Origin: Planctomycetaceae bacterium
GTDB lineage: Bacteria; Planctomycetota; Planctomycetia; Planctomycetales; Planctomycetaceae
Length of the DNA stretch: 64,000 nucleotides
NCBI GenBank assembly: GCA_020850695.1
Contig: JADZEF010000021.1
Span: 1 to 64,000 of the forward strand
Reading direction: 5' to 3'
Position 1 is the first letter of the stretch, and every line of letters begins with the position of its first letter. A model generated the notes under the pieces. It did not search any database, was not told the origin of the DNA, and was given only the letters and a program-made list of their open reading frames with translations. Position numbers and translations under genes: made by a program. This document shows, piece after piece, positions 4,514-10,782 of the stretch.

Positions 4514-4692
4514 CCGTCGGAGGGGCAGAGCGATTGGATTCTCTTTCGCAGGCCCGGTCGGACGAATGCCGGGAAGCTCCGGGTGCGATTCGATTACAAT
4601 CCCGGGGACGCCAGCGTTCGATTCGTGCGGATCGGACGCGGATTTCAGATGGTCGAAACCGCGACACCCGATTCCTTCCGTTCGAGTTTTCC

Positions 4693-6912
4693 GTGCCCGC
4701 CGTCGCCGATCAACGCACTTCGACGCAGCGTCCCGTGCCGCTGGTGGCGCGGGATGATTTGCGCGTTGTGCGGATGCGCGATCGCGGCGCGGGGTCGTGG
4801 GTGGTCAAGGATCCGATTGCGCTGAAGTATCACCGGCTGCAGCCCGAGCAGCACCGCGTGCTGGCACTCCTGGATGGGAAGCGGAGCCTTGATGATATTC
4901 GGCAGGTGCTGACGGTTGAGTTTCCCACGGTGACGATCGATGCGGGGGAAGTGCAGCGGCTGATTGTCGAGCTTCACACGCGGGGGTTGTTGACCAGCTT
5001 GCGGCCGGGGCGCGGGCTGCCGTTGCTCGAAGCGGAGCGGAAGGAGCGGCGGAAGCGGCTGTGGAGCGCGCTGACGAACTTTCTTTACTTGCGGCTGCCG
5101 GGATTCGATCCGACGCCGGTGTTGCGGTGGATGCTGCCTCTGCTGGGTTGGATGTTCGCTCCGTGGGCGGTGGCGCTGGCGGGCGGGTTCGTGGTGTGGT
5201 CGCTGCTGCTGGTGCTGGTCGAGTGGGGGGAATTCTCGCGGCGTTTGCCCGAGTTCCAGCAGTTTTTCGGCTGGCCCAATCTCGTCTGGCTGTGGCTGAT
5301 GATCGGCGTCACCAAGCTGGTTCACGAGTTCGGCCATGCATTGTGTTGTCGGCGGCTGGGGGCGGAGTGTCACGAGATCGGCGTAATGCTGCTGCTGTTT
5401 TCGCCAACGATGTACACCGACGCGACCGACTCGTGGATGCTGCGGAGCAAGTGGAAACGGATTGCGGTGGCTTCGGCAGGGATGTACTTCGAATCGATCC
5501 TCGCCGCGGCGGCCGTGCTGGTGTGGTGGAACACGGGGCGCGGTCTGATCAATGCGCTGGCGCTCAACGTGGTGGCGGTGTCATCCGTGACGACAGTGGT
5601 GTTCAATGCCAACCCGCTCATGCGGTATGACGGGTATTACATCCTGAGCGACTGGCTTGAGATCCCCAACATGCGGCAGCGGTCGGACCGTGTGCTGCAC
5701 GACACCTTTGCGCGCACCTGTCTCGGGCTCGACCCGCCTCCCGATCCCTTCCTGCCGGAAGATCGCCGCCGCTGGTTGTTCGTGTATGGCGTGGCGGCGG
5801 GCGTCTACCGGCTGATGGTTCTGTTCGGCGTCACGCTCTTCCTGTACGGTGTGCTGAAGCCGTGGGGCCTGGAGACTCTGGCCGTGGTGATGACGGCCGT
5901 GACGATCGGCGGGATGCTGTTCCGCGGCGGGCGGCAGCTGGTGACGATGATTCGAGGAGCGGGGCCGGGCGAAGTGAATCCGACACGCGTCTCACTCACG
6001 ATTGCCGGTGTATTCGGCCTCCTCATGGCGGCCCTCGTGGTGCCGTTGCCGCTGCACGTCGAATCGACGTTCCAGGTCCAGCCGCACGACCAGCGCGACG
6101 TGTATGTCATCACGCCCGGCGAACTGGTGGAGATTGCCGTGCAACCGGGCGATCGCGTGAAGGCGGGCGATGTGCTGGTGCGGTTGTCGAATCCCGAGAA
6201 GGACGACGCGCGGCGGAAGCTCGATGTCCGCAAGCGAATGGACGAGATGAATGTTGAAGTGGCTTACGCCCTCGACGACGACAACCGCGAAACGGTGGTC
6301 CGCGAGAAGTTGGCGGGGACGATTGAAGAGCTGAAGGACTACGAGCGGCAGCTCGATGTGCTGGTGTTGCGGGCCCCGTGCGATGGGGTCGTCGTGGCGG
6401 CCCCGCCGAAGCCCGAGCCGCGGCTGGACCACGAGGCGACGGCGCTCAACGCGTGGCATGGCACGCCGCTCGATCGCCACAACCTCGGCTGCTGGCTCGA
6501 CCGGCAGACGCACGTGGTGAGCATCGCACCGGACCATCGCGTCGATGCGATCCTGTATGTCGATCAGGCCGACCGGAGCGACGTGCGAGCGAAGCAATCG
6601 GTTGAGCTGAAGTTCGACCATCTTCCCGAAGCGACGTTCGTTGGAGAGGTCAACGACATCGCGCTGCGGGAGCGGTCGTCGGCCCCGGCCGAGCTTTCGC
6701 AGAAGCAGGGGGGCGACCTGACGACCGTCACCGACCGGCGCGGCCGCGAGCAGCTGACGAGCGTTGCCTATCAGGTGACGGTGGTGCTGGAGGATGAAGC
6801 GGGACTGCTGCAGCCGGGGATGAAAGGCAAGGCGCGGTTCGCGGTCGCGCGGCGGTCGGCGTTCGACTGGCTGTGGCGGAAGGTGCGGCAGACGATTCAC
6901 TTCCGGCTGTGA
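4693..6912 (+). CDS. M50-family membrane zinc metalloprotease fused to an HlyD-like adaptor domain
   Basis: The product is about 739 residues if the GTG at 4693 is the start; no ATG in frame fits well, since the next (4774) removes the conserved RDDLRVV block. A winged-helix-like PqqD-type N-terminal region (WVVKDPIALKYHRL...LLDGKRSLDDI) precedes a multi-pass membrane core with the metalloprotease motif HEFGH (His211, Glu212, His215). The third ligand region is NPLMRYDGYY (Asp313). A periplasmic HlyD/biotinyl-lipoyl-like domain (from about residue 455: VYVITPGELVEIAVQPGDRV) completes it. Families of this type are site-2-protease relatives linked to secretion or peptide export. The partner transporter is not in the window. 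Confidence 0.9.
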   Translation: MPAVADQRTSTQRPVPLVARDDLRVVRMRDRGAGSWVVKDPIALKYHRLQPEQHRVLALLDGKRSLDDIRQVLTVEFPTVTIDAGEVQRLIVELHTRGLLTSLRPGRGLPLLEAERKERRKRLWSALTNFLYLRLPGFDPTPVLRWMLPLLGWMFAPWAVALAGGFVVWSLLLVLVEWGEFSRRLPEFQQFFGWPNLVWLWLMIGVTKLVHEFGHALCCRRLGAECHEIGVMLLLFSPTMYTDATDSWMLRSKWKRIAVASAGMYFESILAAAAVLVWWNTGRGLINALALNVVAVSSVTTVVFNANPLMRYDGYYILSDWLEIPNMRQRSDRVLHDTFARTCLGLDPPPDPFLPEDRRRWLFVYGVAAGVYRLMVLFGVTLFLYGVLKPWGLETLAVVMTAVTIGGMLFRGGRQLVTMIRGAGPGEVNPTRVSLTIAGVFGLLMAALVVPLPLHVESTFQVQPHDQRDVYVITPGELVEIAVQPGDRVKAGDVLVRLSNPEKDDARRKLDVRKRMDEMNVEVAYALDDDNRETVVREKLAGTIEELKDYERQLDVLVLRAPCDGVVVAAPPKPEPRLDHEATALNAWHGTPLDRHNLGCWLDRQTHVVSIAPDHRVDAILYVDQADRSDVRAKQSVELKFDHLPEATFVGEVNDIALRERSSAPAELSQKQGGDLTTVTDRRGREQLTSVAYQVTVVLEDEAGLLQPGMKGKARFAVARRSAFDWLWRKVRQTIHFRL

Positions 6913-7102: not shown

Positions 7103-8416
7103 CTATGGAACCGTCGTTTCGTCGGTGTGCCAATTGGGGAACTTGCCCTTCAATGGGACTTCGACGCCATCGCGCAGGACGGTCATGCGGACCTCGTCTC
7201 CCGGTGAATAGACGCGCAAGAGATCGGACAGGAGCTGCTCGATGGTCCGATTGTCGGATCGTCCCGCCGCTGCCGTGATCACGTCTCCCTTCTTCAGGCC
7301 GAGATTCCCCGCGAGGCCGGCGTCTTTCGCTGAGACGACGCGAATCGCCATTTGATCCTCGGCGAGTTTCAACTCGGCTCGCTGCGACTTTGACAGGGCA
7401 TAGCCACGGAACTCGAATTCGAGCGGGACGCTCCGCATCGATTTTCGCCAGCCGATCTCGGTCGGACGCCAATCCCCTTCAGGCCGCAGCTCAAGACGCA
7501 GGGTCGGACGGCGGTCGACTTCGTCGGTTCCGGTGCGTTCCGGTTTCGATGCGTTCACTCCTCGTCGAACCTGAAGAACCATGGGCTCGGTGTCGGACGC
7601 TCGGTGCAGAACCCAGCGGATGTCGTACTCGGACCGCACCGGGACGTCGTTCCATCGGGCCAGCACATCCCCCGCTTTGAGTCCCGCCTTCTGCGCCGGC
7701 GAATCGGGTCTCACCTTCAACACCTTCGTGCCGTGGTTCAGGTCGAGTTCGACGCCCATGTTTTCGGGGACCGGCCAGCCGAAGAGCTTGCGGCGGTCGA
7801 AGACGCCGTCGTGCGCCCACTGCAGCAGTTGATACTCCTTCACCTGATGACAGTGGACACATCCCTGATGATTCTGCTTGAGCAGGGGAATGTCCTCGGG
7901 GGTCGATTTCGCCTTCGGAATGGGTTGCAGCAGATCCACGGTTTCCGTCGGACGGGCCTTGCGCTCGGCGTGGGCCGCCAGGACGAGGCGCATGGTACGA
8001 AGCAGGGCGTCCTTGCTCAGGCGGCGCTCGGGCTCGCCGTCGTCGCGGCCGCCGTAACGGCTGTAGACGTTCAGTTTTTCATCGAGGAAGAAGCTGTTCC
8101 AGGTGACGTCGTAGTCGAACTCGAAGCGGTTGAGAGCGACTCCGTTCATGGACGTAATGCGAACGCACACGAACTCCTCGCGGAGCCGCTTGATGTCGAC
8201 ATCCTGATGAGCAACCTGCCCATCCCAGTGGAAGCACTCGGGTCAACGCTCGCAGCGGAAGACGACGAAGATCGGCTTGCCGGTCTTCGTGGCGACCTCC
8301 GCGGCGCGGTTGAGATTGCTATGCCAACCAGCCGTCTGCCCGAGGGCCGGCAGAGGGAGGACAACGGCTGCAGCGAGGGCGAGTGACGCGATGGCCGGGC
8401 AGATGCGAAGGGACAT
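7103..8416 (-). CDS. Secreted thioredoxin / CxxCH / PDZ protein, predicted selenoprotein (UGA = Sec58)
   Basis: From the ATG at 8416 the frame encodes a signal peptide (MSLRICPAIASLALAAAVV...LGQ) and a thioredoxin-like start (TGKPIFVVFRCER). It then meets TGA at 8245-8243 and continues in the same frame to 7103, 437 residues in all. The TGA falls where a Cys-x-x-Cys active site is expected, giving Cys55-Glu-Arg-Sec58. After the thioredoxin part comes GCVHCH (CxxCH, about residues 186-190), which could bind a c-type haem, then two PDZ domains (about 220-285 and 350-415, with LKAGDVL and LKKGDVI). I recall a planctomycete family named Trx7/PDZ domain-containing (seleno)protein. A plain ORF caller would start at GTG 8170 and lose the signal peptide and active site. 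The alternative, a nonsense mutation, is less likely because coding character is intact on both sides. Confidence 0.85.
8209..8239 (-). promoter_or_regulatory. Candidate bacterial SECIS hairpin after the UGA codon
   Basis: Folding the mRNA by hand just after the UGA gives an imperfect stem. GAGUGC and CCA pair with UGG and GUUGCUC, with bulges, and close a six-base loop CUGGGA. The loop guanines lie about 17-19 bases past the UGA, close to where the apical guanines sit in the E. coli fdhF element. The stem contains wobble pairs, so the fold needs a computed check. Confidence 0.45.
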
Positions 8417-8853: not shown

Positions 8854-10782
8854 CTATAGCCGCGACGTTTCTCGTCGGAGCGGCGTTGCGGCATCCGCAG
8901 GAGACTTCGCCCCGATCGAATCGAGCAAGTCGCGGAGCACGTCGAAGGGCACCGGTTTCGCAAAGTGATGATCGAATCCCGCTTCCCGCGACAACCGGCG
9001 ATCATCCTCTTTGTCCCAGCCCGTCAGGGCGATCAACACAAGATCGCGGTTGCGTGCGTTTGCGCGGAATCGCCGGGCGACTTCGAGGCCGCTCATTCCG
9101 GGCATGCCCAGGTCGAGCACGACGGCGTGGGGGTCGAACTCCTCTGCCGCGGCCAGCGCGGACGGACCGTCGAAAACGCTGCGGCACTCAAATCCGCCTC
9201 GGCTGAGCATGATCGTCAGCGTGCGCGCGGCGTCGCAATTGTCGTCGACAACCAGCACGCGTCGAGTCGCCGGCGTTCCATTCTGCGTTGAGTGGTCTGG
9301 CCGGGGTTCGATTCCGCCCGGGACGTGACCGGCGAGCACCGCGAGCCTCACGATGAATTCGGCGCCGCGGCCGGGGCCGTCGCTGCGGGCTTCGACGGTT
9401 CCGCCATGCATCTCGACCAGTGTGCGAACGATGTTCAATCCGAGCCCGAGCCCGCCGCGAGACCGGAAGTGCGGGTCTTCGACCTGTGCGAAGATGTCGA
9501 AAATGTGAGGCAGGGACTCGGCTGGAATTCCGGCGCCTGTATCCCGGACGCTCAATGCCACCTGCCGTCCGTCGCAGGTCGCGGACAACCGGATCTCGCC
9601 TCCCGGATCGGTGAATTTCGCGGCGTTGCTCAGCAGGTTCATCAGCACCTGGACGAGGCGTGCCGCATCCGCCTCAAGCCAGACGTCCTCGTCAGGAATG
9701 CTGATGAGAAGTTGATGCTGGAATTCGTCGATCTGGGGTCGACAGGTCGCAATGGCATCCCGGACGACATCAGCCAGCAGGACGGGAGCGGGACGCAGCT
9801 TCACCTTGCCGGTGTTGATCCGGCTCACGTCGAGCAGATCGTCGACCATCCGCACCATGTGCTCGAGCTGGCGCTGCATGATTTCGAGAATGTCGTCATC
9901 GGACGGGTCGGCCCGCGTCATTCGCAGGAGGTCGAGGCCGCTCCGCAGCGGAGCCAGAGGGTTCCGCAACTCATGAGCCAGTGTCGCGACGAACAAGTCC
10001 TTGCGGCGGTCGGAAGCCCGGATCGCGGCCTCGGCCTGGCGGAGCTCGGTGACGTCGTTGTGGACCTCGGCCACTCCTTCAAGCGTGTCATCTTCTCCCC
10101 GATACAGAATGCAATGGATGGCGACGTTGAGCGGGCGACCGTCCTTCCGCAGCTGCTTCACCTCTCCTCGCCATTGCCGAGTGCGCAGGAGTTCCGCGCG
10201 AATGGCCTCGATCGGTGCGGGAAACTCGGTGCGCAGCAGTTCGTGGATGACGCGTCCCGCGGCCTCGTCGTTGCTCCAGCCGTAGAGCTGTTGCGCGCCT
10301 TCGGTCCAGGTGGTGATCCGCCCCTCGACGTCGCAGAACACGATTCGCGCCGCGCTCAGCGCGTGCGCCTGCTCGCGCATGCGGGCATCGTGCGCCCGCG
10401 TGGCGGCGCGGAGCCGTCTGCGATACTGGCCGGCAAGTCCCATCGCCCCTGTCAGCATCGACAGGCCGAAGAACGTCATCAGTTCCTTGGCCGAGGGAAT
10501 CGCCGGCGGCAGCGGGGCATCGAACCGAAAATGTGAAGCGAACCAGACGGTGAGCGGCATGAGCAGGGCCGGGCCCACGCCGCTGAACCAGCAGCACACG
10601 ACCACGCTCGACAGCGCCAGCACCCCCCCGACGGGGCCATCGAGCGGCGTGTAGGGGATAATGGCGAACAGCGCCGCCACGAACCCGAGCGAAAGAACGT
10701 ACCGTACGATGGTCGCGCGGAGGGGCGTGGCCGTCGCCTGCCGGCCGATCCAGGTTCCAACTCGGGCCGCGGAAAGTTTCAT
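8854..10782 (-). CDS. Hybrid sensor histidine kinase (membrane, PAS, HisKA, HATPase, receiver)
   Basis: The 642-residue product has N-terminal membrane helices of the KdpD/DUF4118 type (about residues 22-115). A PAS domain follows (about 140-245), then HisKA with the phospho-accepting His270 in ATLAHELRNPLAPLR. The ATPase domain has NLLSNAAKF, RDTGAGIP and GGLGLGLNIV (about 370-480). The C-terminal receiver has VLVVDDN and Asp557 in VVLDLGMPGMSG, with the conserved lysine in HHFAKPV. It should autophosphorylate and pass phosphate to its own receiver. No separate response regulator or output gene lies next to it, so the signal and target are unknown. Confidence 0.95.
   Translation of the reverse strand: MKLSAARVGTWIGRQATATPLRATIVRYVLSLGFVAALFAIIPYTPLDGPVGGVLALSSVVVCCWFSGVGPALLMPLTVWFASHFRFDAPLPPAIPSAKELMTFFGLSMLTGAMGLAGQYRRRLRAATRAHDARMREQAHALSAARIVFCDVEGRITTWTEGAQQLYGWSNDEAAGRVIHELLRTEFPAPIEAIRAELLRTRQWRGEVKQLRKDGRPLNVAIHCILYRGEDDTLEGVAEVHNDVTELRQAEAAIRASDRRKDLFVATLAHELRNPLAPLRSGLDLLRMTRADPSDDDILEIMQRQLEHMVRMVDDLLDVSRINTGKVKLRPAPVLLADVVRDAIATCRPQIDEFQHQLLISIPDEDVWLEADAARLVQVLMNLLSNAAKFTDPGGEIRLSATCDGRQVALSVRDTGAGIPAESLPHIFDIFAQVEDPHFRSRGGLGLGLNIVRTLVEMHGGTVEARSDGPGRGAEFIVRLAVLAGHVPGGIEPRPDHSTQNGTPATRRVLVVDDNCDAARTLTIMLSRGGFECRSVFDGPSALAAAEEFDPHAVVLDLGMPGMSGLEVARRFRANARNRDLVLIALTGWDKEDDRRLSREAGFDHHFAKPVPFDVLRDLLDSIGAKSPADAATPLRRETSRL

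Follow-up and report, generated by a model that had tools for sequence, protein, structure and literature searches.

An exported thioredoxin/PDZ protein of a Planctomycetaceae bacterium with a predicted active-site selenocysteine

The locus and its interrupted reading frame

We analysed a 64 kb stretch of DNA from a Planctomycetaceae bacterium, referred to as the window, whose minus strand carries a frame of 438 codons running from an ATG at 8416 to a TAA at 7103. The sole interruption of this frame is a TGA codon at 8245..8243 (TCA on the plus strand at 8243-8245), which falls on residue 58. When the TGA is translated as U, the only change made, the product reads MSLRICPAIASLALAAAVVLPLPALGQ...FVVFRCERUPECFHWDGQV..., and 379 sense codons follow the UGA, close to the 380 or so stop-free codons that had been given in an earlier note on this DNA. 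The features of the locus are as follows.

7103..8416, minus strand: complete gene for a predicted exported Trx7/CxxCH/PDZ selenoprotein of 437 residues with Sec58 and a TAA stop (translation and profile match)
just 5' of ATG 8416, minus strand: Shine-Dalgarno-like AGGA (sequence)
8339..8416, minus strand: signal peptide over residues 1-26, MSLRICPAIASLALAAAVVLPLPALG (visual inspection)
8111..8326, minus strand: Thioredoxin_7 domain, residues 31-102 (Pfam, family profile, fold search)
8252..8254, minus strand: Cys55 codon, extra Cys 5' of the standard CxxC, Sec in 46/135 homologues (alignment)
8243..8245, minus strand: UGA codon, predicted Sec58, most likely the attacking residue at the N-terminal end of the thioredoxin CxxC (translation, alignments)
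8234..8236, minus strand: Cys61 codon, most likely the second (resolving) active-site Cys, Cys in 126/135 homologues (alignment)
8206..8224, minus strand: putative SECIS hairpin GATGGGCA-GGT-TGCTCATC, 8 bp, apical GG 27-28 nt past the UGA (comparative folding)
7847..7861, minus strand: C186-V-H-C189-H190, CxxCH located between the thioredoxin and PDZ parts, a motif for binding c-type heme (135/135 homologues)
7556..7759, minus strand: first PDZ domain, residues 220-287 (Pfam)
7142..7399, minus strand: second, more divergent PDZ-like domain, residues about 340-425, bounds approximate (Pfam, model, fold search)

The confidence of the structure model is low over residues 1-26, as signal peptides normally give, and the signal peptide together with the Thioredoxin_7 match bears out the description, in the earlier note, of an export signal and the start of a thioredoxin fold ahead of the TGA. 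The table-11 ORF calling gave a single gene call here, a truncated GTG ORF of 355 aa at 8170..7103, so that the ordinary annotation loses the signal peptide and the active site just as had been anticipated. A six-frame scan of the 64 kb for in-frame TGAs both preceded and followed by coding-like codon composition returned one site, UGA 58. The gene lies between an M50 peptidase/HlyD-type membrane protein (4534-6912, plus strand) and a PAS hybrid histidine kinase with a receiver domain (8854-10782, minus strand).

Family membership and comparison with known proteins

The translated protein scores 374 bits with the NCBIfam model NF041199, 'Trx7/PDZ domain-containing (seleno)protein', whose curated equivalog cut-off is 300, and the match covers residues 30-423, corresponding to positions 2-387 of the 390 in the profile. 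The planctomycete Trx/PDZ (seleno)protein family mentioned in the earlier note is a real one. In the Pfam search, Thioredoxin_7 (PF13899) is followed by a PDZ_2/PDZ_6 match. A profile search detected no trypsin-like protease domain with a catalytic Ser, and the HtrA models matched the PDZ part only, far below their cut-off. Two further members are encoded in the same genome (G000): the paralogue C237 (L009) has a CxxCxxC motif and scores 405 bits, and the divergent C233 (L011) scores 206 bits, below the cut-off, and has the motif C-x-x-S-x-x-F, in which the second and third motif Cys residues are lost, with CxxCH kept.

The family is already catalogued, and the window gene is an additional member of it. 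In PMC13188914, NF041199 is listed as a high-confidence prediction with a CxxU motif and one Sec, with citation of the GOS survey (PMC2398784; Zhang and Gladyshev 2008), which by this citation is the literature origin of the family and whose matching entry is a 'putative secreted serine protease MucD'. PMC9312934 lists the family as 'PDZ domain-containing protein, CxxU', and PMC9402790 notes a MucD-PDZ domain fusion.

The window protein resembles NF041199 as listed in its full-length match, its domain order and the presence of Sec in the same motif. However, the listed motif is CxxU with one Sec, while the full motif found here is [C/U]xx[U/C]xxC, with two Sec codons in roughly half of the UGA members; neither the model name nor the review table mentions the invariant CxxCH. 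The GOS 'MucD' selenoprotein has the CxxU motif and a predicted SECIS in common with the family, but it comprised two Sec sequences at that time, the protease domain is absent here, and the likeness to DegP/MucD is confined to the PDZ part. The nearest solved structures, both by profile and by fold, are AGR2, AGR3 and TXNDC12 (ERp18), although these are eukaryotic ER proteins without Sec, PDZ or CxxCH. When we looked for a conserved gene neighbourhood, an MMPL-family transporter gene was found upstream in six relatives and was absent beside the window gene. In these six loci (L061, L062, L109, L110, L112 and L117) the transporter lies directly 5' of the selenoprotein gene and is about 840-910 aa long, except in L061, where it is cut by the contig end at 567 aa.

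Conservation of the UGA codon and the redox motif

The homologue set consisted of 135 distinct family members from Planctomycetota. An alignment at residue 58, which the earlier note had proposed as a check for Sec or Cys, gave UGA in 94 members, Cys in 40 and Ser in one, and never Trp. Residue 55 is Cys in 89 members and UGA in 46, and residue 61 is Cys in 126 and replaced in 9, so that the motif takes the form CUC (as in the window), UUC or CCC. In a family tree built without the motif columns, the label of residue 58 switches four times and that of residue 55 about 20 times.

These data bear on two readings of the TGA other than selenocysteine. If it were a genuine stop, the functional product would start at GTG 8170 and be truncated, lacking both the signal and the active site. 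The mechanical 355-aa ORF agrees with this, but half of the thioredoxin domain would be missing from such a product, together with the signal peptide, though the family match begins at residue 30, and W31, P48 and R54, all 5' of the UGA, are 99-100% conserved among the 135 homologues; we therefore regard a genuine stop as very improbable. Alternatively, the TGA could be a nonsense mutation, the gene could be a pseudogene, or a Cys codon could have been misread in sequencing, since TGA is one base away from both TGC and TGT and the draft assembly consists of 440 contigs. Against this stand the 94 of 135 homologues that share the UGA at this position and the frame that stays open for 379 codons, as well as the hairpin and selA distributions described below.

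A conserved hairpin downstream of the UGA

The UGA members, including the window's, contain a hairpin with a GGU loop about 18-37 nt 3' of the UGA, which is the form of a bacterial SECIS. Its core, GCAGGU, resembles the SECIS loop of E. coli fdhF. Among the UGA members, 81.9% of the hairpin cells are paired and seven of the eight pairs are changed on both sides, and the covariation is 0.298 compared with 0.146±0.011 in shuffled alignments (0/500 shuffles). When the hairpin register was slid along the alignment, the covariation was far lower at every offset. In the same columns of the 40 Cys homologues, 23.8% of the cells are paired, which is shuffle-like, and no covariation was detected. Under the loop, the Sec forms commonly encode the peptide DGQV and the Cys forms have mostly replaced it, as would be expected if the RNA structure constrains the peptide. 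A hairpin conserved only where the UGA is also speaks against a mutation or a sequencing error.

The support for this SECIS is comparative, and the stability of the window's hairpin alone is ordinary for its composition (z -0.25). RNAalifold recovered only the inner three pairs from the whole UGA alignment, probably because there are two hairpin classes one base apart in register, and the paired cells were counted against named structures instead. A search of the region against Rfam gave chance matches only.

Selenocysteine machinery and its co-occurrence with the UGA

A search for selA, selB, selD and tRNA-Sec, also suggested in the earlier note, found all four in the genome. The tRNA-Sec (anticodon UCA, 73 bits) adjoins selB, and selA (506 bits) and selD (383 bits) are each located on other contigs. 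The contamination of the bin is 4.92%. We considered a contaminant origin of selA, selB, selD and the paralogue loci and rejected it, as their GC and tetranucleotide make-up fits that of the window; contamination is not a likely source of the Sec machinery.

In the window's taxonomic family, selA is present in 26 of 61 genomes. All 14 genomes with a UGA copy have selA, and none of the 35 selA-negative genomes has a UGA copy (Fisher P = 4e-7, uncorrected for relatedness). In the phylum sample, selA was found in 70 of the 76 UGA-copy genomes (P = 2e-10, likewise uncorrected for relatedness); the other six are all fragmented drafts, five of them with selB, and in total 75 of the 76 have selA or selB. 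The window's clade of 14 members (SH-aLRT 100) contains a natural control: its single Cys member (L116) comes from a genome without selA (G414), and its hairpin stem is partly broken. The Sec trait is patchy within the window's family, and Sec and Cys paralogues occur side by side in selA-positive genomes.

That the UGA copies follow selA is a further point against a mutation or a sequencing error, a reading which the comparative sequence data already refute and to which we give next to no weight. A genome-wide reassignment of UGA, for example to Trp, or readthrough without selenium is equally hard to credit: assigning a residue to UGA does open the frame, and nothing further in its favour was found, but the window scan returned a single such UGA, the homologues have Cys and never Trp at the site, and the genome has the complete Sec machinery. 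Based on these comparative observations, we consider it nearly certain that selenocysteine is inserted at UGA 58 of this exported, thioredoxin-like redox protein.

Position of the selenocysteine in the active site

In other UxxC thioredoxins, Sec takes the place of the attacking Cys. From the alignments and the structure models, the active site of the window protein is most likely Sec58-x-x-Cys61, with Sec58 in place of the first, attacking Cys. First, the alignment of U58-P-E-C61 to CPYC of S. aureus DsbA is gap-free. Second, the family profile aligns residue 58 with the Cys of AGR2 CPHS (E 1e-5). Third, in the structure model of the truncated protein the active-site helix starts at residue 59, right past residue 58, and a fold search with this model gave AGR2, AGR3, TXNDC12 and DsbD-gamma as neighbours. 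In the full-length model, whose fold-search matches are dominated by PDZ domains, the helix starts at residue 62, so that the models leave the precise geometry of residues 55-61 uncertain.

The earlier note had described a Cys-x-x-Sec at the CxxC site, with Sec replacing the second Cys. The spacing C55-U58 does exist, but the standard pair in the DsbA and AGR2 alignments is Sec58-x-x-Cys61, and by the same alignments, as well as by the truncated model, Sec58 falls on the N-terminal position of CxxC; the extra upstream Cys55 had been taken for the first active-site Cys. Likewise, the published label CxxU describes the C55-U58 spacing and not the CxxC pair. A register in which Sec58 is the second active-site Cys and Cys61 is accessory would agree with the CxxU of the review tables, with the presence of Cys or Sec at residue 55 in 135/135 members while residue 61 is replaced in 9, and with the helix start in the full-length model. 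Weighed against the two alignments and the truncated model, it appears unlikely, and it concerns the register only, leaving the selenocysteine unaffected.

The invariant CxxCH motif

The CxxCH motif is present in 135/135 members, including the paralogue without the redox motif, C233, which suggests that its function may be separate from that of the redox motif. In an exported protein, CxxCH is the signature of c-type heme, and cytochrome c assembly proteins are encoded in the genome. In Pfam, no cytochrome c family matched above its cut-off; a sub-threshold NrfB-like match (E 0.0023, 18.8 against 27 bits) was obtained in one of the 18 members searched. We also considered a C-x-H-C-H metal site in place of heme, and the replacement of H188 by Arg in three members is mildly against it. 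On the sequence evidence, we lean slightly towards a covalently bound heme c in electron exchange with the active site. The proteins MamE and MamP also combine PDZ with CxxCH magnetochrome (heme) motifs in one polypeptide. Their similarity to the window protein runs through the PDZ part only, and they differ from it in having no thioredoxin domain, another domain order and no Sec.

Members with two selenocysteine codons

In 46 of the 135 members (for example L059, L130, L132, L134, L137 and L142), two UGA codons lie six bases apart (UxxUxxC). These UUC members have an extra hairpin directly 3' of the second UGA, with its loop about 17 nt past the first UGA. The covariation of its core is 0.259 compared with 0.144±0.024 in shuffles (0/60), in a test that was not blind because the structure was first noticed in the same sequences. 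The corresponding values were 0.130 against 0.151 in shuffles for the single-Sec members and 0.036 against 0.048 for the Cys members. The simplest reading is that the double-Sec members possibly have one SECIS for each UGA. In the openly available passages of the literature we found no published description of the CxxCH or of the double-Sec forms of this family; the second Sec, the second hairpin and the strictly conserved CxxCH are features beyond the existing family catalogue.

Proposed function and implications

We propose that the SelA/SelB/SelD/tRNA-Sec system decodes UGA 58 under the direction of a SECIS inside the coding sequence, 18-37 nt downstream, and that the product would be an exported (periplasmic or paryphoplasmic) thiol/selenol oxidoreductase. 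As in DegP-type proteins, its two PDZ domains would probably bind the C-termini of client proteins and so hold them. Sec58 would attack oxidised thiols of these exported clients, and Cys61, and also Cys55, would resolve the resulting selenylsulfide, with Cys55 probably serving as a third, backup or relay residue. Such an enzyme would likely serve to repair or reduce thiols that have become oxidised in exported proteins, and the heme c, if bound, would pass electrons to or from the active site. We are less confident of the client and heme steps than of the selenocysteine reading. The wider proposal, in which an exported selenothioredoxin with its own covalent heme c and PDZ client-holding domains forms a direct selenol/heme relay, and in which a double-Sec branch uses two adjacent SECIS hairpins, one per UGA, with the two UGAs six bases apart, is tentative, and we give it rather less than an even chance.

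Correct reading of the UGA matters for the annotation of planctomycete genomes, as the table-11 call loses the signal peptide and the active site. For work on how selenocysteine evolves, the family offers a useful test set: the state of residue 58, Sec or Cys, follows the presence of the machinery and seldom changes on the tree, residue 55 toggles between the two, and the patchy Sec trait in the window's family makes it a good system to study Sec loss. If the CxxCH binds heme, selenol chemistry and heme electron transfer would be joined in one protein.
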